From: an uncultured Marivita sp.
Lineage (GTDB): Bacteria; Pseudomonadota; Alphaproteobacteria; Rhodobacterales; Rhodobacteraceae
DNA: 64,000 bases
Assembly: GCF_947488135.1 (NCBI RefSeq)
Contig: NZ_CANKYW010000001.1
Coordinates: forward strand, 1,054,001 to 1,118,000
Reading direction: 5' to 3'
Shown: positions 3,512-12,739 of the stretch, piece after piece
Layout: every line of letters starts with the position of its first letter
Numbering within the stretch: position 1 is the stretch's first letter
The notes under the pieces: model-generated
The model's input: only the letters and a program-made list of their open reading frames with translations
Told to the model about the DNA's origin: nothing
The model's database searches: none
Program-made: the position numbers and the translations under genes

Positions 3512-4438
3512 TCATGCCGATGGTGGGGCTTTCGGACGGAAATCGAAGAGCGGAATGCCCATCGTACGGGCTTTGTCGGCGAGGTTTTCGGTGATGCCGG
3601 AGCCCGGGAAGACGATGAGCCCGATGGGCATGGTGTCGAGCAACCGGTCGTTGCGCTTGAACGGGGCCGACTTGCCGTGCCGCGTCCAGTCGGGTTTGAA
3701 GACGATCTGCGTCACGCCGCGCTTGTTGGCCCAGGCGGCGGCGATGCGTTCGGCCCCGCGTGGCGCGCCGCCGTGCAACAGGACCATGTCGGCATGTTTC
3801 GCGTGGACGCGGTCGAGGGCCGCCCAGATGGCCGTGTGATCGCTGCAATCGAGCCCGCCGCTAAAGGCGATCTTCGTGCCTTGCGGCAGCAGCGGTTCCA
3901 GATCGGCGCGGCGTTTCGCAGCCAGGTGGTCCCGGCTGTCGATCAGCGAGGCGGTCATCGTGCGGCGGTTCACATGGCTGCCGGACCTTGGGTGCCAGGT
4001 CTGGCCGAGATGGGTCTCGAAGAGATCTGCCGCGAGATCGCGCATGGCCTCGTAGGCGTTGCGCCGTTCGAGCAACGTGATGCCCTCGGCGATTAAGGTC
4101 TCGAGCTCAACCGAGCGGACTTCGGATCCGTCCTGCTCGCGTTGCGACCGCTTCTGCGCCTGTTCGTTGGTGTCGAGGTCGCGGCCCGTGCGCTCGGTCG
4201 TGCGGTGGAAGAGGTTCGTCGTGGACCAGAGCAGGTCTTCGAGGTCGGGCTCCAGACGGGTATCGGAGAGAGTTGAGACGAGCGCGTCGAAGATGTCGGC
4301 GACGGCGGAACGAATGGCGTCGGGATCCGGCAGGGGACGGGGATCGGGCTCGTCGGTGAAGGGGCGCCAGCCGTAGAGCTGCAGTTCCTCGAGCACTACG
4401 GCCGTGGAGGATCGGGTTTGAACATGGGTCTCGGTCAT
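3512..4438 (-). CDS. DUF2493 / YspA-type SLOG-fold protein
   Basis: The 308-residue product starts MTETHVQTRSS and carries a C-terminal domain of about 120 residues with FSGGLDCSDH, LHGGAPRGAERIAAAWA, FKPDWTRHGKSAPFKRND and IVFPGSGIT. These are the hallmarks of DUF2493, placed in the SLOG (Smf/DprA-LOG) superfamily proposed to bind nucleotide-derived ligands. The N-terminal 180 residues are predicted helical and typical of the plasmid and island version. The ATG at 4436-4438 has GGAG 9 nt upstream; the longer frame upstream is low-complexity shadow. The leader holds a 10-bp hairpin with loop AGAGG. The gene belongs to the conserved island block with the Toprim and ParB-like genes. Ligand and role are unknown. 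Confidence 0.88.
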   Translation of the reverse strand: MTETHVQTRSSTAVVLEELQLYGWRPFTDEPDPRPLPDPDAIRSAVADIFDALVSTLSDTRLEPDLEDLLWSTTNLFHRTTERTGRDLDTNEQAQKRSQREQDGSEVRSVELETLIAEGITLLERRNAYEAMRDLAADLFETHLGQTWHPRSGSHVNRRTMTASLIDSRDHLAAKRRADLEPLLPQGTKIAFSGGLDCSDHTAIWAALDRVHAKHADMVLLHGGAPRGAERIAAAWANKRGVTQIVFKPDWTRHGKSAPFKRNDRLLDTMPIGLIVFPGSGITENLADKARTMGIPLFDFRPKAPPSA

Positions 4439-4461
4439 GATGTCGTCTCCGCTTTTGAAGA

Positions 4462-4476
4462 CCGCGCCTCTCGCGG
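4462..4476 (-). promoter_or_regulatory. AGAGG-loop hairpin in DUF2493 leader
   Basis: On the minus strand, CCGCG at 4472-4476 pairs with CGCGG at 4462-4466 around the loop AGAGG at 4467-4471. The stem extends outward by further pairs, including one G-U, to about 10 bp. The loop begins 29 nt upstream of the DUF2493 ATG. The same pentaloop occurs in the hairpins before the ParB-like and DUF932 genes. The block AGCGGAGGACGGC at 4546-4558 is shared with the DUF736 leader at almost the same distance from the start codon (108 against 107 nt). Confidence 0.55.
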
Positions 4477-4664
4477 CCTTCCCGGGAGACGGAAAAGCGG
4501 GGGCCGGGCGGGTCTGCACCGCCGCGCCTGCGGCGGCCGAAGCGAAGCGGAGGACGGCTTGCCGTTGCGGGACCGGCCGGGCTCTGCTCCGTCTCGACCG
4601 CTCTCGGAAGGCCGGAAGGCGTGGCTCTGATTTCGGAGGCACTGACCGGAGATATCGTGCCCGA

Positions 4665-5708
4665 TCAGTCGAATGCGAGATCGAGGAGCACGGCAGCGTC
4701 CTCCGGCGCCAGTTGCGGACGCAGTTGCGCGCGCAGTTCGTCGAGGCCGGTGGCGCGCAGGTCGTCGTTGAAGTCGCCGAGACGCGGAGAGAGGCGGATA
4801 ATGTCGATCTGGGAACAGCCGGCATGTCGTTCCATCTGCTCCGCAGCGGTCACGCCTGCCGGATCGGGATCGACGGCGATGTAGAGGCGATGCAGACCCA
4901 TGGGCAGCTTGAGGGCGGCGAGGTGGTTGGCGGACAGAGCCGCGACGCATGCCATCCTTGGTAGCGCGAGGTGCAGGGAGATCATGGTCTCCAGGCCTTC
5001 GCCGACAAGCAGGACGCCGTTCGGTTCGCCAATGCGAAAACCGTGGCCGAGGAGATTGCCCATGGCCTTGCGCGGTGGACTGACAGGGGCCTTGTCCGCT
5101 GTGGCGGGGTCAAGCCAGGTGCGGTGCAGGCCGGTAAGCCGTCCGTCGAGGTCCGTCACCTTGGCGAGCAGGGCGGGCCAGGTCTCGGGTGGATTCCCAG
5201 ACCGGTGTTCCTCGCGCCAATAGTAGCACCTCGGGTGAAATCGAAGACTGTCGAGATGCCCTAGTCCCGTGAGGCCGCGTTTTGCGAGATATCGTTCGGC
5301 CAGCGTGCCTGAAATCGGCTCGCCGATAGCCCAGAGCCGCCGCGCGGCCTCGGGTGAGCCGCGAGATGCTGGCAGATTGGCGGCGCGGTGCCTGTCCGTC
5401 TGCGGCAGGCTGAGAAACCGGCGCGCTTCGTCCAGCGTGTCCCTCAGCGTGGTGATCCCCTTGTTCAGGGCGATCAGGTCCAGAAGGTCCCCATGCTGCC
5501 CGGTTGCTGAATCGGTCCACTTGCCAGCTGCGCCGGGCCCGGAGGTCGGACCCGACAGCCGTACATAGAGGCTGCGACCGGGCGTATTCTGCACGTCACC
5601 GACGATCCAATACCGGCCCTGCTTGCGGCCGTTCGAGAGGTAGTGGCGGCAGACGGTCTCCGCCTCCTCGGCAAGGCGGCGGGCGATGTCTGCGGCGAGG
5701 CTGTGCAT
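4665..5708 (-). CDS. Toprim domain protein, DUF7146-like primase-related
   Basis: The 347-residue product starts MHSLAADIARRLAEEAE. The N-terminal half resembles the DUF7146 region of mobile-element primase-like proteins. The C-terminal half holds a Toprim domain with LLVGEGLETMISLHLA (catalytic Glu) and YIAVDPDPAG (the DxD motif). Such proteins are thought to act in replication or DNA processing of plasmids and integrative elements. The start at 5706-5708 has an AGGAGG site 9 nt upstream. The frame is open upstream into the ParB-like gene, but those residues are a shadow of it. A long hairpin with a T tract lies just upstream. No zinc-finger domain is visible, so it is not a standard DnaG. 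Confidence 0.82.
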   Translation of the reverse strand: MHSLAADIARRLAEEAETVCRHYLSNGRKQGRYWIVGDVQNTPGRSLYVRLSGPTSGPGAAGKWTDSATGQHGDLLDLIALNKGITTLRDTLDEARRFLSLPQTDRHRAANLPASRGSPEAARRLWAIGEPISGTLAERYLAKRGLTGLGHLDSLRFHPRCYYWREEHRSGNPPETWPALLAKVTDLDGRLTGLHRTWLDPATADKAPVSPPRKAMGNLLGHGFRIGEPNGVLLVGEGLETMISLHLALPRMACVAALSANHLAALKLPMGLHRLYIAVDPDPAGVTAAEQMERHAGCSQIDIIRLSPRLGDFNDDLRATGLDELRAQLRPQLAPEDAAVLLDLAFD

Positions 5709-5733
5709 GCTCTGTGCCTCCTGTCGTGGATAG

Positions 5734-5764
5734 AAAAAGGGGCCCGCCATTTCTGGCGGACCCC
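5734..5764 (-). terminator. Hairpin with T tract between ParB-like and Toprim genes
   Basis: On the minus strand a 10-bp stem (5755-5764 with 5739-5748, one G-U pair) with a 6-nt loop is followed directly by five T residues at 5734-5738. It lies 45 nt after the ParB-like stop and ends about 26 nt before the Toprim start. It could terminate part of the ParB-like transcript or act as an attenuator for the Toprim gene. Confidence 0.6.
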
Positions 5765-5808
5765 GGCTGCCGGAACTCGGGGGGAAGGAGCTCCGACCTG
5801 CTCGAAGG

Positions 5809-7938
5809 TCACTCGGCGGCAGTTCGGGCGAAGGCGTCACCGGCGACGGGATCATCTTCCTCCATGGGGTCGGAATCTCCGATAGCCGGTTCGCCGCCGT
5901 CTTCCGCCGATTGCGCTTCGCCGCTGTCAGGATCGTCGTTCGAAGGCTCTTCATCCGCGGTGTCCGCATGGTCGACCAGTTCGATCTCCGGTGCGTCCTC
6001 TTCCGGCAGCGGCGGCGTGCGCAGCGGGTCCGGCAGCCAGCCGGTACCGACGAGCAGGTCCTCTGCGGCCATCACCATCTCGGCCTTCTTCAGCCCGGCG
6101 ATCCTGTCAGCGGCGTCTTCGCCTTTCGCCTCGCGCACGGCCTTGAGGATGCGCGCCTTGGTCACGCGGCCGAGGTAGCTGTCGCCCGTCGCCGTCCAGC
6201 CCGCCTTTGCCATGTCGAGCCCGACGGTCCCGGCCAGCACATCCGCGTGCGCGATGGCCCGCGGTCGGCGCTGGTAGGGGTCGTGGACGGCGTTCACGCT
6301 CATCGCCACGCAATGGGCGAAAAGCGCCTCGCGGCTGCAGCTGTCGAACTCGGTCAGGGCCTCCCAGAGGTCCTCGGGTGCCTTCGGCAGGTTCCGTGCC
6401 CAGGTCTCGTGACACTGGTCGATGGCCTGCGCGTAGGCCGTGTCGCCGAGGCCCGGCACCTGCGATCCGAACCCCGCGTTGCGCGGTTCGATCTCGACGC
6501 AGCTGTCGACGGCGTAGCGATAGAAGAGCCGCAGGACCATCGCGTGCAGGGCCGCGAGGAAGGCGACCTGCGGGTCCTGGGCCAGGGCGTTGCGCAGCGC
6601 CAGGGTGCGATGGGCCGTCAGTTCCATCACGAGGCGGTCGGAAAGCGGTTTCAGGCCCTCGTCCTCTTCTTCGTCGTCCGCCGCGGATGTGACGGTGTCA
6701 TCGGTGTCGGCGACCCGTGCCGCTTCCGGTACAACCTCGCCGGTGTCCTCCACCTCCTCGACAGGCTCATCCTCGGGCCGGACGTAGCCGCGCTCGACCC
6801 GCAGCCGCCCGGAACTGTCGATGCTGACGAAGGCTCCTGCCAGCGCGAGGTCGTCGGCCTCGTACCGGATCGGACGCGCCTCGAGGGCCTCCATCGCCTC
6901 CTCGATCTCGCCCAACCGGGCATCGACATCGTCAGGCAACTCGTCGGCCTCTGCATGTTCGGCCTCGAGCGCGTCGTATTCAGCCTTCAGCGCCTGGTAG
7001 CAGGCCTCCTCCTCGTCGCTCATCGGCACCGCCTCGCCATGGACCCGGCGCATCCCGAAGCTGTAGCCATAGGGGAACTCGGTGTCGACCTCGACCCATT
7101 TCCAGCCCTCGCTGCGCACCGTCTCAGCCTCCTCGGCGAGTTTCTCGCGCACCATGACGTCGAGCAGCGCGGCATCCTGCAGCCAGCCGCCGTCGTCCTG
7201 CTGGAACAGGTCGCGCAGGATTTCGCCCCCTGCCTCGACGTAGTCGTCGAGCCCGACGAATTGCGCCCGCTTATCCGACGCCCGCACCGCACCCTCGGTC
7301 AGCATGCGGCGGATCTCGTAGGGCTGCCGCGAATAGTGCCGCTGCAGCGCCTCCCAGACCTGCTCCTGCCACGCGTGATCGGGGTTGACCGTGAAAGCCA
7401 TGAGCTGGTCGAGCGTCATCTCCTCCTCGGCATAGGAATCGAGCAGCGACGGCGCGACGGCGGCGAGCTTCAGCCGCTGCTTGACCACGCTGGCCGGGAC
7501 GAAAAAGGCCGCGGCGATTTCCTCCTCGGTGCGGCCTTTCTCGCGCATCGCCTGGAAGGCGCGGAACTGGTCGAGCGGATGCAGCGGCGCGCGCTGGACG
7601 TTCTCGGCGAGGCTGTCTTCCTCGGCCAGCCCGTCCGTGCGGATGATGCAGGGCACCAGCGCGGTCTTGTTCATGCGCTTCTGCTTGACGAGCAGTTCCA
7701 GCGCCCGGAACCGCCGCCCACCCGCGGGGATCGTGTACATGCTGGTCTCGGCGCCGCTGTCGTCCAGCACGGGCCGCACGGTGATGGAGCTGAGCAGCGT
7801 CCGCCGCGCGATGTCTTCGGCCAGTTCTTCGATCGACACGCCCGCCTTGACGTGGCGCACGTTCGACTGGCTGAGCATCAGCTTGTTGAAGGGGATGTCG
7901 CGCGAGGCGCTCAGGGTGATCTTCTGCTGCTTGGTCAT
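5809..7938 (-). CDS. Large ParB/RepB/Spo0J-type nuclease-fold protein of the island
   Basis: The 709-residue protein starts MTKQQKITLSASRDIPFNKL. Residues 15-220 form a ParB-type domain: AGGRRFRAL at about 93-101 and the arginine patch ENVQRAPLHPLDQ at about 132-144 are the ParB boxes, followed by a helix-turn-helix region (EEEIAAAFFVPASVVKQRL). The rest is acidic, with long Glu- and Asp-rich stretches near the middle and the C terminus. This is much longer than chromosomal ParB (about 300 residues) and typical of element-encoded ParB-like proteins in alphaproteobacteria. No parA is next to it, so a role in expression control or replication is as likely as partition. The leader holds a conserved structured element shared with the DUF932 gene. 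Confidence 0.88.
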   Translation of the reverse strand: MTKQQKITLSASRDIPFNKLMLSQSNVRHVKAGVSIEELAEDIARRTLLSSITVRPVLDDSGAETSMYTIPAGGRRFRALELLVKQKRMNKTALVPCIIRTDGLAEEDSLAENVQRAPLHPLDQFRAFQAMREKGRTEEEIAAAFFVPASVVKQRLKLAAVAPSLLDSYAEEEMTLDQLMAFTVNPDHAWQEQVWEALQRHYSRQPYEIRRMLTEGAVRASDKRAQFVGLDDYVEAGGEILRDLFQQDDGGWLQDAALLDVMVREKLAEEAETVRSEGWKWVEVDTEFPYGYSFGMRRVHGEAVPMSDEEEACYQALKAEYDALEAEHAEADELPDDVDARLGEIEEAMEALEARPIRYEADDLALAGAFVSIDSSGRLRVERGYVRPEDEPVEEVEDTGEVVPEAARVADTDDTVTSAADDEEEDEGLKPLSDRLVMELTAHRTLALRNALAQDPQVAFLAALHAMVLRLFYRYAVDSCVEIEPRNAGFGSQVPGLGDTAYAQAIDQCHETWARNLPKAPEDLWEALTEFDSCSREALFAHCVAMSVNAVHDPYQRRPRAIAHADVLAGTVGLDMAKAGWTATGDSYLGRVTKARILKAVREAKGEDAADRIAGLKKAEMVMAAEDLLVGTGWLPDPLRTPPLPEEDAPEIELVDHADTADEEPSNDDPDSGEAQSAEDGGEPAIGDSDPMEEDDPVAGDAFARTAAE

Positions 7939-8025
7939 CGGGATATCTCCGCGACGGGCCAGCCGGGAGCCTCTCTCCCGACCTCCAAACCCGTCACGGA
8001 AAACCCGGCACCCCTCTTACTCTGG
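7939..8025 (-). promoter_or_regulatory. Structured 5' leader of ParB-like gene (copy A)
   Basis: On the minus strand an outer stem (GTGACGGG at 7990-7997 with CCCGTCGC at 7951-7958, one G-U pair) encloses a hairpin. The hairpin arms are CGGGAG at 7975-7980 and CTCCCG at 7964-7969, around the loop AGAGG. The ribosome site GGAG directly follows the outer stem, and 12 nt separate the stem from the ATG. The leader before DUF932 has the same layout, spacing and loop with compensatory base changes. This supports a selected RNA structure, probably controlling translation. Confidence 0.7.
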
Positions 8026-8049
8026 AGGCACCGCATAGGTCATATGAAC

Positions 8050-8078
8050 TTGCAAATCAATCCATATGGCCCTATATC
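8050..8078 (+). promoter_or_regulatory. Promoter of the Xre-RES pair with internal palindromes
   Basis: TTGCAA at 8050-8055 and TATATC at 8073-8078 are separated by 17 bp, the ideal sigma-70 spacing. CATATG repeats at 8041-8046 and 8063-8068 form an inverted arrangement, and the second is part of the palindrome CCATATGG inside the spacer. This is a plausible operator for autorepression by the Xre antitoxin. The Shine-Dalgarno AAGGAG lies before the ATG at 8109. Confidence 0.55.
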
Positions 8079-8108
8079 ATCAGTCAAGCTAGGAAGGAGC
8101 GCCAACAC

Positions 8109-8498
8109 ATGGAAAACGTTGTTCTGGAACGTCCTGCGCCGGATCGGCAGGGGGTCGCGCTCAAGGCCTTCGCTCGGATCGCGGACGCCTGGTCGCTCAC
8201 CCTGCGGGAGGCGGCGGCGCTGGCGGATATGTCGGACTCGACTTGGAAGCGGGCGAAGAAGCCCGATTTTGCGGGGGATTTGACGCGGGACCAGATGCTG
8301 CGATTGAGCGCGCTGATCGGCCTCTACAAGTCGCTCGAACTCTATTTCAACGAGCCGATCTCGCGGAACTGGGCGAAGCTGCCGAACCGGGGCCCCGAGT
8401 TCGACGGAGCGCGGCCCGTGGACGCGATGATCGAAGGGGGATTGCCCAAGATCCTGCGCGTGCGGGGCTATGTCGATGCGCTGCGGGGCGGGGTTTGA
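8109..8498 (+). CDS. Xre/MbcA/ParS-type antitoxin
   Basis: The 129-residue protein contains an Xre-like helix-turn-helix (near residues 30-55, LTLREAAALADMSDSTWKR) and a C-terminal MbcA/ParS/Xre toxin-binding domain. That domain has the usual motifs LRLSALIGLYKSLELYF, WAKLPNRGPEFDGARPVDAM and a glycine-rich end IRGYVD-like (LRVRGYVDALRGG). It is expected to neutralise the RES toxin encoded immediately downstream and to repress the operon promoter. The ATG has an AAGGAG site about 10 nt upstream. The gene is divergent from the ParB-like backbone and is the only plus-strand operon in the visible island. Confidence 0.9.
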   Translation: MENVVLERPAPDRQGVALKAFARIADAWSLTLREAAALADMSDSTWKRAKKPDFAGDLTRDQMLRLSALIGLYKSLELYFNEPISRNWAKLPNRGPEFDGARPVDAMIEGGLPKILRVRGYVDALRGGV

Positions 8499-9184
8499 GG
8501 ATCACGTCGGTCAATGACCGCGCCCTTGTTCGGCTGATTTCAGAGACCCATCATAAGCCCCCAGTGCTGCGGGGGCTGGTGGATAGCGACGCTGAGGCGG
8601 AGATCCTCGCCGAAATCGAAAGCGAGACCAGTGCCCGCCTGATCGCCGAAGCGCAGGGCAGTCCCGCGCTCGACCGCCGAGAATTGGCCTTCGCGCGGCG
8701 GTCCCATGACCTGACCCTCTACGGGCAGAGCCATATCAACGCGGCCTTCACCTACACGCGACCCTCGGGCAACCGGTTCAACACCGGCGAGCGCGGCGCG
8801 TGGTACTGCGCCTGGGACATGCTGACGAGCGCGCAGGAAGTTGGGTTTCACCGGACCCGTGAATTGGGCTTCATCGGCAGCTACGAGGACGAGGCACGCT
8901 ACGTGGAACTGCTGGCGGATTTCATCGGGGATTTCCCGGATCTGCACGGGGAGGCGCATCCGGCGCTCGATCCGGTCCCCGAGCGGGGCTACCCGGCTGG
9001 GCAGCGCCTTGCCGCGGATCTGAGATCAGAAGGGTATCGTGGGCTGATCTATCCATCCGTGCGTCACCCGGGCGGACGCTGCTTCGTGGCCTTCGATCCC
9101 GGGATCATCCAGAATGTCCGCCCGGGCGCGAGTTGGAAGCTGGTCTGGCAAGGTGCACCCGAGTTCACGATCGAGGGGCTATAA
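8495..9184 (+). CDS. RES-family NAD+-degrading toxin
   Basis: The 229-residue product carries the RES signature: FTYTRPSGNRFNTG with the first Arg, EVGFHRTRELGF with the Glu, and YPSVRHPGGRCFVAF with the Ser. Characterised RES toxins (MbcT, ParT, Res) consume or transfer NAD+. No ATG precedes the conserved region. The best start is a TTG at 8495-8497 that overlaps the antitoxin stop (TTGA), giving translational coupling. A rare start would keep toxin below antitoxin. The reading frame extends far upstream inside the antitoxin gene as a shadow. It is convergent with the DUF932 gene, 74 bp away. It probably stabilises the island or acts in phage defence; the second is inference. Confidence 0.88.
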   Translation: MRITSVNDRALVRLISETHHKPPVLRGLVDSDAEAEILAEIESETSARLIAEAQGSPALDRRELAFARRSHDLTLYGQSHINAAFTYTRPSGNRFNTGERGAWYCAWDMLTSAQEVGFHRTRELGFIGSYEDEARYVELLADFIGDFPDLHGEAHPALDPVPERGYPAGQRLAADLRSEGYRGLIYPSVRHPGGRCFVAFDPGIIQNVRPGASWKLVWQGAPEFTIEGL

Positions 9185-9258
9185 CGCCCCTCGAAACCAT
9201 CATTCAGTACTTGAGATTATCCCGATAGGGCGTTGATGCTCATGTGTATTATATGCAA

Positions 9259-10449
9259 TCAGGCTTTCTCCAACAACACCTTCGCCTTGCCCTCCATCAC
9301 CAGCCGCGCATCCTGCTGCGGCTTCGACCGGGCCACCGCGGTGATCCCCTGCACGAAGTCGAAGACGCTCTCGGGCGGGCGGCCTTCCTCGGCCAGCACC
9401 GTCTCGACGATCCGCCCCGTCTCCGCCTTGGAGAACCCGCGCTTGCGCAGGAAGTCCTGACGGTCCTCGTCCGACCGCGCGACGATCTTCTCCCGCGCCG
9501 CGCGGATGCCGTCGATGAAGGGCGCGGGCGAGGACTCGGCGAAGCGGCTGAGCGCCGGGGCGGCCTCGTGGGCAAAGCGGGAGGCGGCGTATTTCGAATG
9601 CCGGATCGTGATCTCCTGGAAATCCTCGACGCCCCAGAGGTTGCGGTTCTGGCACACCGCGCGCAGGTAGAAGCTGGCGATGCCGAGCGTTTTGGCGCCC
9701 ACCTCCGAATTCCAGCAGTAAAACCCCCGGAAATAGAGGTCGGGCGAGCCGTCGGGCAGCAGCCCCGCCTCGATCGGGTTGAGGTCGTCGACGAGGAACA
9801 GGAACACATCGCGATCCGAGGCATAAAGCGTCGTCGTCTCCTTCGTCACATCCACGCGCGGGTTGTAGATGCCGGTGGACCAGTCGAGCACGCCCGGCAC
9901 CTTCCAGCGCGTGTCGCCGGCGCCGTTGCCCGCGATGCGCTGGACGGCGGAGACCAGTTCGTGGTCGTAGATGCGGCCATAGTCGGGGCCGGTCACTGCG
10001 CGCAGTTCCGTGCGGCCATTCGCGACCTCCATGGTCTTGATCTGCTCGGCGCGGTGGTTGGTCAGCCCGTATTGCAGGTTGATCCCCGCCAACGGCGCGG
10101 GCAGTTGGCGCAGATAGGCGGCGGGCGCACCGACGAGGCTCGAGAGCTGGCCAAAGGACCAATGCGTCGGCGCGATGGGTTCATCCGCACCGGGCAGGAC
10201 CAGCCCCAGCTTTTCCGGGTTGTCCCGATGCGCCTCGACCCAAATCGCGGCGCTCTCGACCGTCTGCGTCCGGCTCCGCTCCGCCCGGCCCTTGACCGAG
10301 GCGAACAGATCGTCGAGTGACAGATATCGCTCGTCATCCGGTCGAGAGAACCACTCGGACGACACGCGATCCACGTTCGTGCCGCGCGACACATCCACCT
10401 TGTAGCCGCCGCTGATATCACGCCCGGCATCGATAATTTCGGTATTCAT
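9259..10449 (-). CDS. DUF932 family protein (phage/plasmid-like)
   Basis: The 396-residue protein starts MNTEIIDAGRDISGGY. It contains the DUF932 core, including THWSFGQLSSLVGAPAAYLRQLP, GLTNHRAEQIKTM, TGPDYGRIYDHEL, LYASDRDVFLFLVDD, and the segment FYCWNSEVGAKTLGIASF with NRNLWGVEDFQEITIRHS. DUF932 proteins are common on plasmids, phages and integrative elements. Some have been linked to anti-restriction by neighbourhood, but the function is unproven. It is convergent with the RES toxin. The leader is a second copy of the structured element found before the ParB-like gene, suggesting that both are regulated together. Confidence 0.9.
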   Translation of the reverse strand: MNTEIIDAGRDISGGYKVDVSRGTNVDRVSSEWFSRPDDERYLSLDDLFASVKGRAERSRTQTVESAAIWVEAHRDNPEKLGLVLPGADEPIAPTHWSFGQLSSLVGAPAAYLRQLPAPLAGINLQYGLTNHRAEQIKTMEVANGRTELRAVTGPDYGRIYDHELVSAVQRIAGNGAGDTRWKVPGVLDWSTGIYNPRVDVTKETTTLYASDRDVFLFLVDDLNPIEAGLLPDGSPDLYFRGFYCWNSEVGAKTLGIASFYLRAVCQNRNLWGVEDFQEITIRHSKYAASRFAHEAAPALSRFAESSPAPFIDGIRAAREKIVARSDEDRQDFLRKRGFSKAETGRIVETVLAEEGRPPESVFDFVQGITAVARSKPQQDARLVMEGKAKVLLEKA

Positions 10450-10535
10450 GGGTTTTCTCCCGCGACGGGCGGCCGAAAGCCTCTCTCTCGACCTCCAAAC
10501 CCGTCACGGGCCGGGACGGTACCCCTCTGACTCTC
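10450..10535 (-). promoter_or_regulatory. Structured 5' leader of DUF932 gene (copy B)
   Basis: The same two-stem layout as copy A is present. The outer stem is GTGACGGG (10500-10507) with CCCGTCGC (10462-10469). The inner arms are CGAGAG (10485-10490) and CTTTCG (10474-10479) with loop AGAGG (10480-10484). Compared with copy A, one pair changes G-C to A-U and the next G-C to G-U, so pairing is kept while sequence differs. Distances to the ribosome site and the ATG (12 nt) are identical. Confidence 0.7.
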
Positions 10536-10538
10536 AGA

Positions 10539-11627
10539 TCATTCGGCCGCGAGGTTCCCGGACGGGAATGGCGCGCGCGAGGCGGCCAGCCGATGCAGGG
10601 CTTCGGGCCTGATATGTGTGTAGCGGCGCAGCATCTTCCAGTCTTTGTGACCGGTGACGAGGGCGACCTGTTCGATGGCGAAGCCTGCCTCGAAGAGCCG
10701 GCTTGTGCCTTCGTGGCGCAAATCATGGAAATGCAGGTCTTTGACACTGACCTCCACGCAGGCGCGCCGGAAGGCCGTCCCGACCGACTTGGAGTTGTAG
10801 GGAAAGATCCGCCCGTTGGTGTGACCCAGATGCCTGGCCTGTTCAGTGACCAGTGCCCAGGCATCGAACCCGGTGGCTGCGAAAAGGGGGATCCGCTGGT
10901 CGTTCCCGGTCTTGTTGCGCGGGTCCTTCCTGTCGCGGATCAGGAGCATCCGACGGTCGATGTCGAGATCGCTCCATTCGACCCGGCAGATCTCGTCCAG
11001 CCGCATGGCCGTGGCCACCGCGAACTTCACGATCCGCGTCATCGGTGTCGTCAGGCGTTCGTTGTCATCGAAGCAGCGGAATAGGCGGTTCAACTCGTCC
11101 GTACTAGGACGCCGATCCCTCTCCGTGCCCTTGCCGATCAGTCCCAGCCGCTTCAGCGCGACACGCGCCAGATCGACCGGCTCCGGGGAGATATCGAGGC
11201 CATGCACGGCCGCCGCATGGGTGACGATCATCTTGATCACGCCAATATCGATCCCGAGCGTCACCGGTCCCGCACCTTGCTCCGCGCGCATCTTGCCGTA
11301 GTCGATCAGCTTCTGCCGATCGAGGTGGCCGATCTTCTCCTTCCCGAGATCGCGCTTGAGCGTCGTGAGCGTGGCGGCCTTGCTGCGACGCGGCGGTTTC
11401 CCTACCTCGCACATATCGGCTATATGAAGGTCGATGAGGTCGCCAAAGGTCTGAAGGCGGGAGACGGACGACTTGTTCGGCGCCAACCCCTGATCCACCC
11501 GGGTCTCCGCTTGGCGGGCCCAGCGATGGGCGTCGTCGCGACGTAGAAACGTCTCGCTCGCGTAGCGGCCCTTTCGTCTGATCTGAACCCGGTAGGCACC
11601 GGAGGGGAGCTTGGTGATGGAGGCCAT
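10539..11627 (-). CDS. int: Tyrosine recombinase, dusA-specific integrase
   Basis: The 362-residue protein has a short beta-rich N-terminal domain (MASITKLPSGAYRVQIRRKG), a SAM-like core-binding domain and a C-terminal catalytic domain. The catalytic residues are visible: Arg in ATAMRLDEICRVEW, His-x-x-Arg in HFHDLRHEGTSR, His in VTGHKDW, and the nucleophile Tyr in LRRYTHI. I start at 11625-11627 because homologous integrases begin with this N terminus; there is no clear ribosome site. The gene reads away from dusA, whose 5' end lies 113 bp behind it. This is the arrangement described for elements that integrate into dusA. It should catalyse insertion and excision at the att site. Confidence 0.9.
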   Translation of the reverse strand: MASITKLPSGAYRVQIRRKGRYASETFLRRDDAHRWARQAETRVDQGLAPNKSSVSRLQTFGDLIDLHIADMCEVGKPPRRSKAATLTTLKRDLGKEKIGHLDRQKLIDYGKMRAEQGAGPVTLGIDIGVIKMIVTHAAAVHGLDISPEPVDLARVALKRLGLIGKGTERDRRPSTDELNRLFRCFDDNERLTTPMTRIVKFAVATAMRLDEICRVEWSDLDIDRRMLLIRDRKDPRNKTGNDQRIPLFAATGFDAWALVTEQARHLGHTNGRIFPYNSKSVGTAFRRACVEVSVKDLHFHDLRHEGTSRLFEAGFAIEQVALVTGHKDWKMLRRYTHIRPEALHRLAASRAPFPSGNLAAE

Positions 11628-11740
11628 TTTCGTGTGCGCTGTGTGTGCAATGAGTCGTCGTAGAGGGGAAAATTCGGGGATATTGGGGCGTATTCCAGCG
11701 TAGCAGCATCCGCCGCCAACAAATTGAAGATACACAAAAA

Positions 11741-12739
11741 ATGCAAGTAAATCAACACGCTAGATTATCCTGTGCCCCTATGATGGACTGGACCGACCGC
11801 CATTGTCGGTACTTTCACCGGCAGATCAGTCGGCATGCGCTGCTCTATACCGAGATGGTGACGGCGCCGGCGTTGGTGCGGGGTGGGGCGGTGCATTTGC
11901 TGGACTTCAGCCCGGAGGAGCATCCCGTTGCGTTGCAGTTGGGCGGGTCCGATCCACATGAGCTGGCGCAGGCGGCGCGGCTTGGGGCCGAGGCGGGGTA
12001 TGACGAGATCAATCTCAACGTCGGCTGCCCGTCCGACCGGGTGCAGTCAGGCACGTTCGGTGCGGTGCTCATGCGGTCGCCCGCGTTGGTGGCCGAGTGC
12101 GTGTCTGCAATGAAGGCGGTTGTCGACGTGCCGGTGACGGTCAAGTGCCGGATCGGGGTGGACGATCAGGAACCGGAGGATGTCCTGCCGGATTTCATTG
12201 CGCAGGTGCGGGATGCGGGCTGCGATTACCTCATCGTTCACGCGCGCAAGGCGTGGCTGCAAGGTCTGTCACCAAAGGAGAACCGGGATATTCCGCCGCT
12301 GGATTACGATCTGGTGTTGCGTATGGCGGACCGGTTTTCCGACCTGCCGATGTCGATCAACGGTGGCCTCGACACCCTCGGCGCGGCAGAGGCGCTGATC
12401 GCGCGCGGCATGACCGGTGCGATGATCGGGCGCGCGGCCTATCACCGGCCGTGGGACATCTTGTCCGAAGTCGATGCGCGCATTTTCGGCGCCAAACCTG
12501 CGGTACGAAGCCGGGAAGAGGTGATTGACCGGATGCGCCCCTACATCGCCGCGCATCTCGAGAGGGGCGGCAAGCTGCATCAGATCACGCGGCACATGCT
12601 GGGCCTTTATGCGGGCCAACCGGGCGCGCGGACGTGGCGGCGGGTGCTGTCCGAGAAAGCCAACCGCCCGGATGCCGATGCGACTCTTCTCGATGAGGCG
12701 CTGGACCGGATGCAGCAGCCGGACACGCTGGCGGGCTGA
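11741..12739 (+). CDS. dusA: tRNA-dihydrouridine synthase A, 5' end rebuilt by island insertion
   Basis: The 332-residue FMN enzyme reduces uridine to dihydrouridine in the tRNA D-loop (U20 region). Visible motifs include APMMDWTDRHCRYFHR at the N terminus, LQLGGSDPHELAQAARL, NLNVGCPSDRVQSGTFGAVLM with the catalytic Cys, VKCRIGVDD, FIVHARKAWLQGLSPKENR-type block and NGGLDT. The similarity to ordinary DusA begins at about residue 7; the first residues come from sequence next to the integrase, as expected if an element entered the 5' end and restored the frame. No clear ribosome site precedes the ATG at 11741; an internal ATG at 11780 is the alternative. The promoter must lie in the 113-bp gap after the integrase gene. 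Confidence 0.93.
   Translation: MQVNQHARLSCAPMMDWTDRHCRYFHRQISRHALLYTEMVTAPALVRGGAVHLLDFSPEEHPVALQLGGSDPHELAQAARLGAEAGYDEINLNVGCPSDRVQSGTFGAVLMRSPALVAECVSAMKAVVDVPVTVKCRIGVDDQEPEDVLPDFIAQVRDAGCDYLIVHARKAWLQGLSPKENRDIPPLDYDLVLRMADRFSDLPMSINGGLDTLGAAEALIARGMTGAMIGRAAYHRPWDILSEVDARIFGAKPAVRSREEVIDRMRPYIAAHLERGGKLHQITRHMLGLYAGQPGARTWRRVLSEKANRPDADATLLDEALDRMQQPDTLAG
11771..11815 (+). other. Probable attachment site (att) within dusA 5' end
   Basis: The segment encodes the conserved CAPMMDWTDRHCRYF start of DusA, the known target of dusA-specific integrases. It contains a perfect inverted repeat ACCGAC (11792-11797) and GTCGGT (11805-11810) with a 7-nt spacer. The second att copy, at the far end of the island, is outside the window, so the exact core cannot be defined. 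Confidence 0.6.

Follow-up and report, generated by a model that had tools for sequence, protein, structure and literature searches.

The window analyzed here is a 64,000-nucleotide (nt) stretch of contig NZ_CANKYW010000001.1 from an uncultured Marivita sp. (Alphaproteobacteria). It contains a ParB-like gene and a DUF932-like gene on the minus strand, each preceded by a leader whose 3′ end is the ATG of the gene (table 1). The two leaders form the longest direct repeat listed for positions 7000-12000 (60 nt, 78% identity, ungapped). Each leader consists, from 5′ to 3′, of a AGAGUNAGAGG box, a short spacer and two stems, the outer P1 and the inner P2 (closed by the pentaloop AGAGG), followed by a ribosome site and the ATG. 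P1 has the arms CCGUGACGGG and CCCGUCGCGG in both leaders (10 base pairs in common, with one additional G-C pair in the best fold of the second copy). P2 begins with GGUCGGGAG in the ParB-like leader or GGUCGAGAG in the DUF932 leader, and its joint form is GGUCGRGAG / CUYYCGGCY. The ribosome site reads GGAG or GGGAG, and its first two Gs are the last bases of P1.

An earlier reading based on the letters of the window (the sequence-only reading) had described two leaders with a common outer stem and an inner hairpin with the loop AGAGG, and both were confirmed at these places on the minus strand. The base changes it named in the inner stem, one G-C pair to A-U and the neighboring pair to G-U, are likewise present. 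Its distance of 12 nt from stem to ATG holds if the two Gs of the ribosome site are not counted, but measured from the 10 base pairs of P1 the distance is 10 nt in both copies. The C run before the ATG was said to be able to hide the ribosome site in a small hairpin; in the best fold the run does pair, but its partner is a G run upstream of P1, and in the second copy the pairing occurs only when a longer stretch is folded. Folds of 73 nt are more stable than dinucleotide shuffles (z = -6.7 and -3.3, with none of 200 shuffles as good for either leader). Two copies prove little by themselves, and the case for an RNA is made by the collected homologues.

Conservation and distribution of the leader

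Relatives of the DUF932-like gene were collected by a protein-similarity search with the window protein, and the best 80 of 575 matches (82-98% identical) were used. The leader is present before the start of 78 of these 80 genes, a collection made by protein similarity only. One of the 78 leaders is degenerate and was missed by the covariance model described below; at this locus (L024:4908-5014) the 5′ half of the leader is lost and the DUF932 gene is kept. An iterated profile seeded by the two window copies gave 154 matches in the 80 loci and the window, with two matches in 73 of the 81. The covariance model (R1) was built from 54 non-redundant sequences taken from 146 of the profile matches.

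Within the model set 94.8% of the cells are paired, compared with at most 49.1% in slid controls, and 38 cells are changed on both sides compared with 14.1 in shuffles (0 of 500 as high). A further 73 leaders outside the model set, aligned by sequence only, show 92.4% paired cells (slid controls at most 48.1%) and changes on both sides in 16 of 18 pairs, amounting to 104 cells compared with 29.9 in shuffles (0 of 500 as high). When 108 leaders were aligned by sequence only, the column pairs with the strongest covariation were three pairs of P2 (0.46, 0.44, and 0.42; the next pair reaches 0.23). Cells with G-U outnumber cells with A-C in both groups, 143 against 23 for the model set and 192 against 32 for the 73 outside leaders; these two kinds are equivalent on duplex DNA, and the excess therefore points to selection on the sense strand, as RNA. 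Conserved pairing, compensatory change and a fixed place before genes were thus all found, and the reading of the leader as a cis-regulatory RNA, which had been proposed from the two window copies, is strongly supported by these comparisons: the many further copies, the covariation, the G-U asymmetry and the fixed position at the ribosome site all agree with it.

At E ≤ 0.01, R1 matched 12 of 142 genomes sampled across the class (own genome included; one match, in G138, was judged to be chance). Matches were found in 11 of 150 genomes across the phylum, own genome included, and all matching genomes were the own genome or members of the same family or class, in a sample whose share of other classes is not shown. 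Within the family, 58 of 248 genomes (own genome included) matched, with up to 17 matches per genome, of which the weakest are unchecked. The four strong matches of the own genome are two DUF932/ParB-like pairs. A blastn search for plasmids with a window copy returned 161 records. By prediction 60 of these plasmids are conjugative and 28 can be mobilized, and 73 are non-mobilizable. The ten most frequent genera all belong to the Alphaproteobacteria, and 41 further genera occur beyond those named. Wherever leader matches could be classified they were alphaproteobacterial. No match was found among 50,697 phage records, in E. coli genomes, or in IMG/VR with three exact patterns, which miss divergent copies. 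A phage origin of the leader was rejected for lack of a match in the phage records and, for exact patterns only, in IMG/VR.

Genes behind the leader, leader variants and known elements

For the analysis of downstream genes, 146 of 183 model-match rows were used (the 37 dropped rows were duplicate views, partial matches at locus ends and one 14.2-bit match) and 146 of the 154 profile matches were added (eight had no landmark). The resulting 292 entries gave 277 distinct sites after identical ones were removed. Seven of the 277 have no reading frame of at least 25 amino acids at the expected start. Two weak model matches, in L114 (26.8 bits) and L197 (23.4 bits), were judged to be chance; they are counted in the 277 and lie outside the gene families described here.

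Seven gene families stand downstream of 264 of the 277 sites: ParB-like (120 sites), DUF932 (100), a family of 172 amino acids (21), ArdC (16), RadC (3), DUF3768 (2), and a family of 120-128 amino acids (2). The ArdC carriers combine ArdcN with a zincin peptidase, and for ArdC, RadC and DUF3768 the assignment was checked against Pfam with a single member. The ArdC, RadC and ParB-like carriers resemble genes known from conjugative leading regions. Several families can occur within one element: the four leader genes of the element at L190 are ArdC, RadC, a ParB-like gene and the 172-amino-acid gene. All leaders are co-oriented in 97 of the 98 loci with at least two leaders, although some loci overlap and not all are independent. 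The same leader genes are present on four annotated plasmids, for example ParB, DUF932 and a hypothetical gene on pEJ01, which is typed as conjugative. The recurrence and the co-orientation fit the leader as a candidate for common control of several genes within one element, which extends the co-control of the two window genes that the sequence-only reading had put forward. The occurrence of the same fold before several unrelated mobile-element genes throughout the Alphaproteobacteria makes it look like a hitherto unlisted RNA element for the joint control of entry and anti-defense genes.

The genes that carry the leader (ParB-like, DUF932, ArdC, RadC and others) form a candidate regulon, and the leader is a handle on further members of unknown function, such as DUF3768 and the 172-amino-acid family. 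The latter (L191:10641-11159 and relatives) has the leader in common with known mobile-element genes; searches of Pfam, NCBIfam and PHROGs gave no match for it at the thresholds applied, and only DUF6459 was hit, below the cut-off.

The upstream edge of the conserved unit is the AGAGUGAGAGG box. Further upstream, at -140 to -25 counted from P1, every column stays at or below 0.27 bits among 166 upstream-distinct leaders, and the highest values reflect a weak preference for C at -32 to -28. The P2 loop is AGNGG in 192 of 267 leaders (150 AGAGG, 39 AGUGG, and 3 AGCGG) according to a simple parser that misreads some of the others. Divergent leaders keep the layout and differ in their stems. AGAG is absent from both the box and the loop in 5 of 108 leaders, including leaders before DUF3768 and the 120-128-amino-acid family. 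Divergent leaders without the AGAG box and with other loops, for example AUCGG, were observed at L196:3402-3486, L211:2311-2395, L112:1971-2057, L113:1945-2031 and L192:5430-5512, and they possibly represent a second recognition class.

Two classes of leaders appear to contain additional hairpins. In ParB-like leaders a hairpin (P0) forms around the box, with a mean energy of -14.80 compared with -11.76 after within-class swaps of the 5′ arm (0 of 100 as low). P0 is weak in the 172-amino-acid family (5 of 100 swaps as low) and in DUF932 (7 of 100) and is unsupported for ArdC (69 of 100); the rarer classes have too few members for this control, and a swap across all classes gave -13.09 compared with -11.01. 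The DUF932 leaders favor a small hairpin that overlaps the 5′ arm of P1 (-5.74 compared with -5.00, 0 of 100 swaps as low) and could thereby compete with P1, a preference not seen in ParB-like, ArdC or 172-amino-acid leaders. In the best fold of the DUF932 copy in the window, the upstream hairpin and P1 coexist.

The suggestion that the RNA class of the leader is undescribed is in line with Rfam 15, which has no match in the window at the gathering cut-off and yielded no family for the leaders at lax thresholds either. In seven more loci searched at E ≤ 10, the only sub-threshold overlap with the leader was Acido-1 in L077 (22.1 bits, cut-off 50). The radC RNA motif sits before radC, integrase and anti-restriction genes, and the leader is likewise found before a RadC family. 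This motif is a candidate structured RNA of Proteobacteria (PMC2864571). Its model (RF01754) spans 149 positions and does not match the leader: no hit was obtained on the window leaders at E ≤ 5 or on the seven further loci at E ≤ 10. With stricter filters, its gathering cut-off of 40 bits was reached in none of 41 genomes; four of these (G000, G018, G023, and G028) carry the leader, and none of the radC matches listed there overlaps a listed leader. STAXI (RF01728) is described in the same source as a structured motif near genes for single-stranded DNA-binding protein, topoisomerase, anti-restriction and integrase (PMC2864571). It differs in consisting of tandem pseudoknots in Enterobacteriales, whereas the leader occurs in Alphaproteobacteria as a single two-stem structure placed at the start codon of each gene; STAXI gave no match at E ≤ 5 on 7800-10700, and the folds reported here were computed without pseudoknots.

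Frpo promoters stand before leading-region genes of some conjugative plasmids (PMC11541004), and RadC, ArdC and Frpo are treated in PMC5512222 and PMC11541004. Like these Frpo/ssi single-stranded DNA promoters, the leader is a folded element upstream of genes that resemble leading-region genes, but its fold holds the ribosome site and its base-pair asymmetry indicates a sense-strand RNA. With ribosome-site-occluding mRNA leaders in general it has in common the pairing of a stem with the ribosome site, and it differs from them by its own loop, box and gene set and by having no known ligand. The leader is not described among the literature matches listed, a search that mostly did not extend to subscription literature. 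We file it as a new family within a known kind, the structured cis-regulatory leaders.

Probable mode of action and rival explanations

The ribosome site runs into a stable stem, and the best folds of 89 of 108 leaders have its first two motif bases paired. Its mean unpaired probability is 0.21, compared with 0.31 at 300 other open reading frame starts (p = 1.4e-6), with class values of 0.17 for ParB-like and ArdC, 0.22 for the 172-amino-acid family and 0.30 for DUF932. Among the steps of the mechanism, the predicted occlusion of the ribosome site has the best support, if modestly so, and we consider it likely from the comparative data that the leader is a cis-acting RNA of about 90 nt, of a new family, that acts at translation initiation by this occlusion. 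In the folded leader the 30S subunit would reach the ribosome site poorly and translation would be low. A candidate trans-acting factor reading the AGAG of box and loop could set the balance between folded and open states for all leader genes; such a factor is plausible in view of the repeated conserved motif. Genes for establishment, anti-restriction and DNA handling in conjugative plasmids and islands are among the carriers, which makes the timed expression of leader genes around entry into a new cell a likely use of this arrangement.

Conjugative elements must express protective genes on cell entry, and we know of no established route of entry-time expression for the large plasmids and islands of Alphaproteobacteria (rhizobial, roseobacter, sphingomonad). 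The leader makes an RNA-level timing of entry genes directly testable. In some plasmids single-stranded promoters drive entry expression (PMC11541004). More speculatively, the leader might form a post-transcriptional regulon in which a factor that reads AGAG/AGNGG holds at least six unrelated families, establishment and anti-restriction genes included, silent in the donor and allows their translation immediately upon entry, which would parallel zygotic induction at the RNA level. The DUF932 leaders may add a switch to it through the favored hairpin that overlaps the 5′ arm of P1. We regard this extension as doubtful.

Several results weigh against occlusion by a shared factor. The difference in accessibility is modest and uneven, with DUF932 leaders close to the control value, and the AUG is no less accessible than at the 300 control starts. 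Two of the 80 DUF932 starts (L025 and L071) have no leader. The 73 outside leaders were fetched with a structure-aware model that favors paired sequences, although this does not apply to the 80 DUF932 loci. Loops of different genes within an element match no more often than by chance: 44 of 125 pairs agree, where shuffling gives a mean of 40.1 and reaches at least that number in 332 of 2000 rounds. Full anti-box matches in the window are only the complements of the leaders themselves. The loop shuffles give no support to element-specific loop recognition, with the caveat that the simple loop parser misreads some leaders, and the binding site for an element-encoded protein envisaged by the sequence-only reading, whose interpretation is overall partly supported, gained no support. 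A host factor, or none, is possible given this negative result.

Other mechanisms were tried and rejected. An antisense RNA within the window was rejected, as there is no full anti-box match beyond the complements of the leaders; one further anti-loop match lies on the minus strand at 4795. The distance from GTGACG to the ATG modulo 3 (0/1/2) is 54/101/93 in 248 leaders, so no upstream reading frame from GTGACG is conserved, and these counts rule out a leader peptide from the GTG of P1 for that frame only. An intrinsic-terminator attenuator was ruled out at the window leaders, neither of which has a U-tract terminator.

The leader might instead chiefly stabilize the mRNA or load the ribosome, as a 5′ or intercistronic hairpin with GAGG-like standby sites and no specific factor. 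Some leaders immediately follow the stop codon of an upstream gene (ParB-like 47 of 118, 172-amino-acid family 14 of 21, RadC 3 of 3, DUF3768 2 of 2, DUF932 21 of 93, and ArdC 2 of 14), which suits such a role, as do the unreduced accessibility of the AUG, the control-like ribosome sites of DUF932 and the lack of an element-specific match among the loop variants. However, a pure stabilizer needs neither a conserved loop and box nor an exact overlap with the ribosome site, on which P1 closes in most of the leaders folded, and this explanation appears unlikely. A site in duplex DNA, either an operator or a parS-like sequence, that is bound for instance by the ParB-like protein would account for the inverted repeat formed by the P1 arms (half sites CCGTGACGGG and CCCGTCRCGG) and for a carrier that encodes a ParB-like protein. 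It is improbable in view of the sense-strand excess of G-U over A-C, the covariation of P2 with free sequence and the tie of the element to the ribosome site and ATG.

About equally improbable is a folded single-stranded DNA site for conjugative entry, such as a Frpo-type promoter or a priming site. The co-orientation of carriers and their resemblance to leading-region genes would be expected of it, and Frpo promoters do precede leading-region genes in some plasmids (PMC11541004). However, the ribosome site is part of the fold, and the roughly 10 nt between the fold and the ATG leave no room for a downstream start, and some leaders directly follow the upstream gene. No sigma-70-type promoter was matched in 7900-10700, a weak test since alphaproteobacterial promoters may differ and a duplex-mimic form falls outside the scan. 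A dispersed repeat, similar to repetitive extragenic palindromes or miniature inverted-repeat transposable elements, that landed by chance before two genes would explain the multiple copies per genome, but the fixed orientation and distance to the ATG contradict chance placement, nearly all sites precede the seven families and the strong matches of the own genome are paired, and we give this explanation almost no credence. Regulation by an RNA at translation initiation remains the preferred explanation.

Window genes and their surroundings

Table 1. Positions of the two leaders, their parts and their genes in the window
Feature	Positions	Strand	Evidence
ParB-like gene, 709 amino acids	5809..7938	-	Pfam ParB_N E 7.5e-5, 23.1 bits, below cut-off 26.3
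ParB-like leader, AGAG box to ATG	7936..8026	-	R1 match 94.7 bits, E 1.2e-24; copy is part of the model alignment
ParB-like leader, AGAGUAAGAGG box, upstream edge of conserved unit	8013..8023	-	sequence, per-column conservation
ParB-like leader, P1 5′ arm CCGUGACGGG	7990..7999	-	sequence, fold, pairing counts
ParB-like leader, P2 5′ arm GGUCGGGAG	7975..7983	-	sequence, fold, pairing counts
ParB-like leader, P2 pentaloop AGAGG	7970..7974	-	sequence, fold, loop counts
ParB-like leader, P2 3′ arm CUCCCGGCU	7961..7969	-	sequence, fold
ParB-like leader, P1 3′ arm CCCGUCGCGG (ends in the two G that open the ribosome site)	7949..7958	-	sequence, fold
ParB-like leader, ribosome-binding site GGAG	7947..7950	-	sequence
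DUF932-like gene, 396 amino acids	9259..10449	-	Pfam DUF932 18.2 bits, E 0.0022, below cut-off 23
DUF932 leader, AGAG box to ATG	10447..10537	-	R1 match 82.8 bits, E 4e-21; copy is part of the model alignment
DUF932 leader, AGAGUCAGAGG box	10524..10534	-	sequence
DUF932 leader, P1 5′ arm CCGUGACGGG	10500..10509	-	sequence, fold
DUF932 leader, P2 5′ arm GGUCGAGAG	10485..10493	-	sequence, fold
DUF932 leader, P2 pentaloop AGAGG	10480..10484	-	sequence, fold
DUF932 leader, P2 3′ arm CUUUCGGCC	10471..10479	-	sequence, fold
DUF932 leader, P1 3′ arm CCCGUCGCGG	10460..10469	-	sequence, fold
DUF932 leader, ribosome-binding site GGGAG	10457..10461	-	sequence

The ParB-like gene also matches ParB models of NCBIfam below the cut-off, and its PHROGs matches are ParB-like families. 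DUF932 is the name given in plasmid records to homologues downstream of the leader; the predicted structure of the DUF932-like protein (mean predicted local distance difference test score 38.9) was not used. A Xre/RES toxin-antitoxin pair lies between the two leader-bearing genes on the opposite strand (8109-9184).

The 5′ end of the DUF932 leader adjoins the stop codon of an integrase gene (10539-11630). This tyrosine integrase gene directly adjoins a dihydrouridine synthase gene, presumably dusA-like, at the 5′ end of the latter (10539-12739 for both), and the island therefore looks inserted there. No 14-base repeat of the start of the dihydrouridine synthase gene occurs elsewhere in the window. 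Relatives of both genes were found in 16 sources, including the window and at least two views of one place. Genes for a DUF736 protein, a YspA-like SLOG protein and a Toprim protein are encoded in the same orientation at 1945-2283 and 3512-5861, and Agrobacterium pAtK224b has a gene order similar to this stretch. A second related element in the own genome (L198, C5:298000-316000) has DUF932 and ParB-like leaders of its own, and its DUF736 gene is 97% identical to that of the window.

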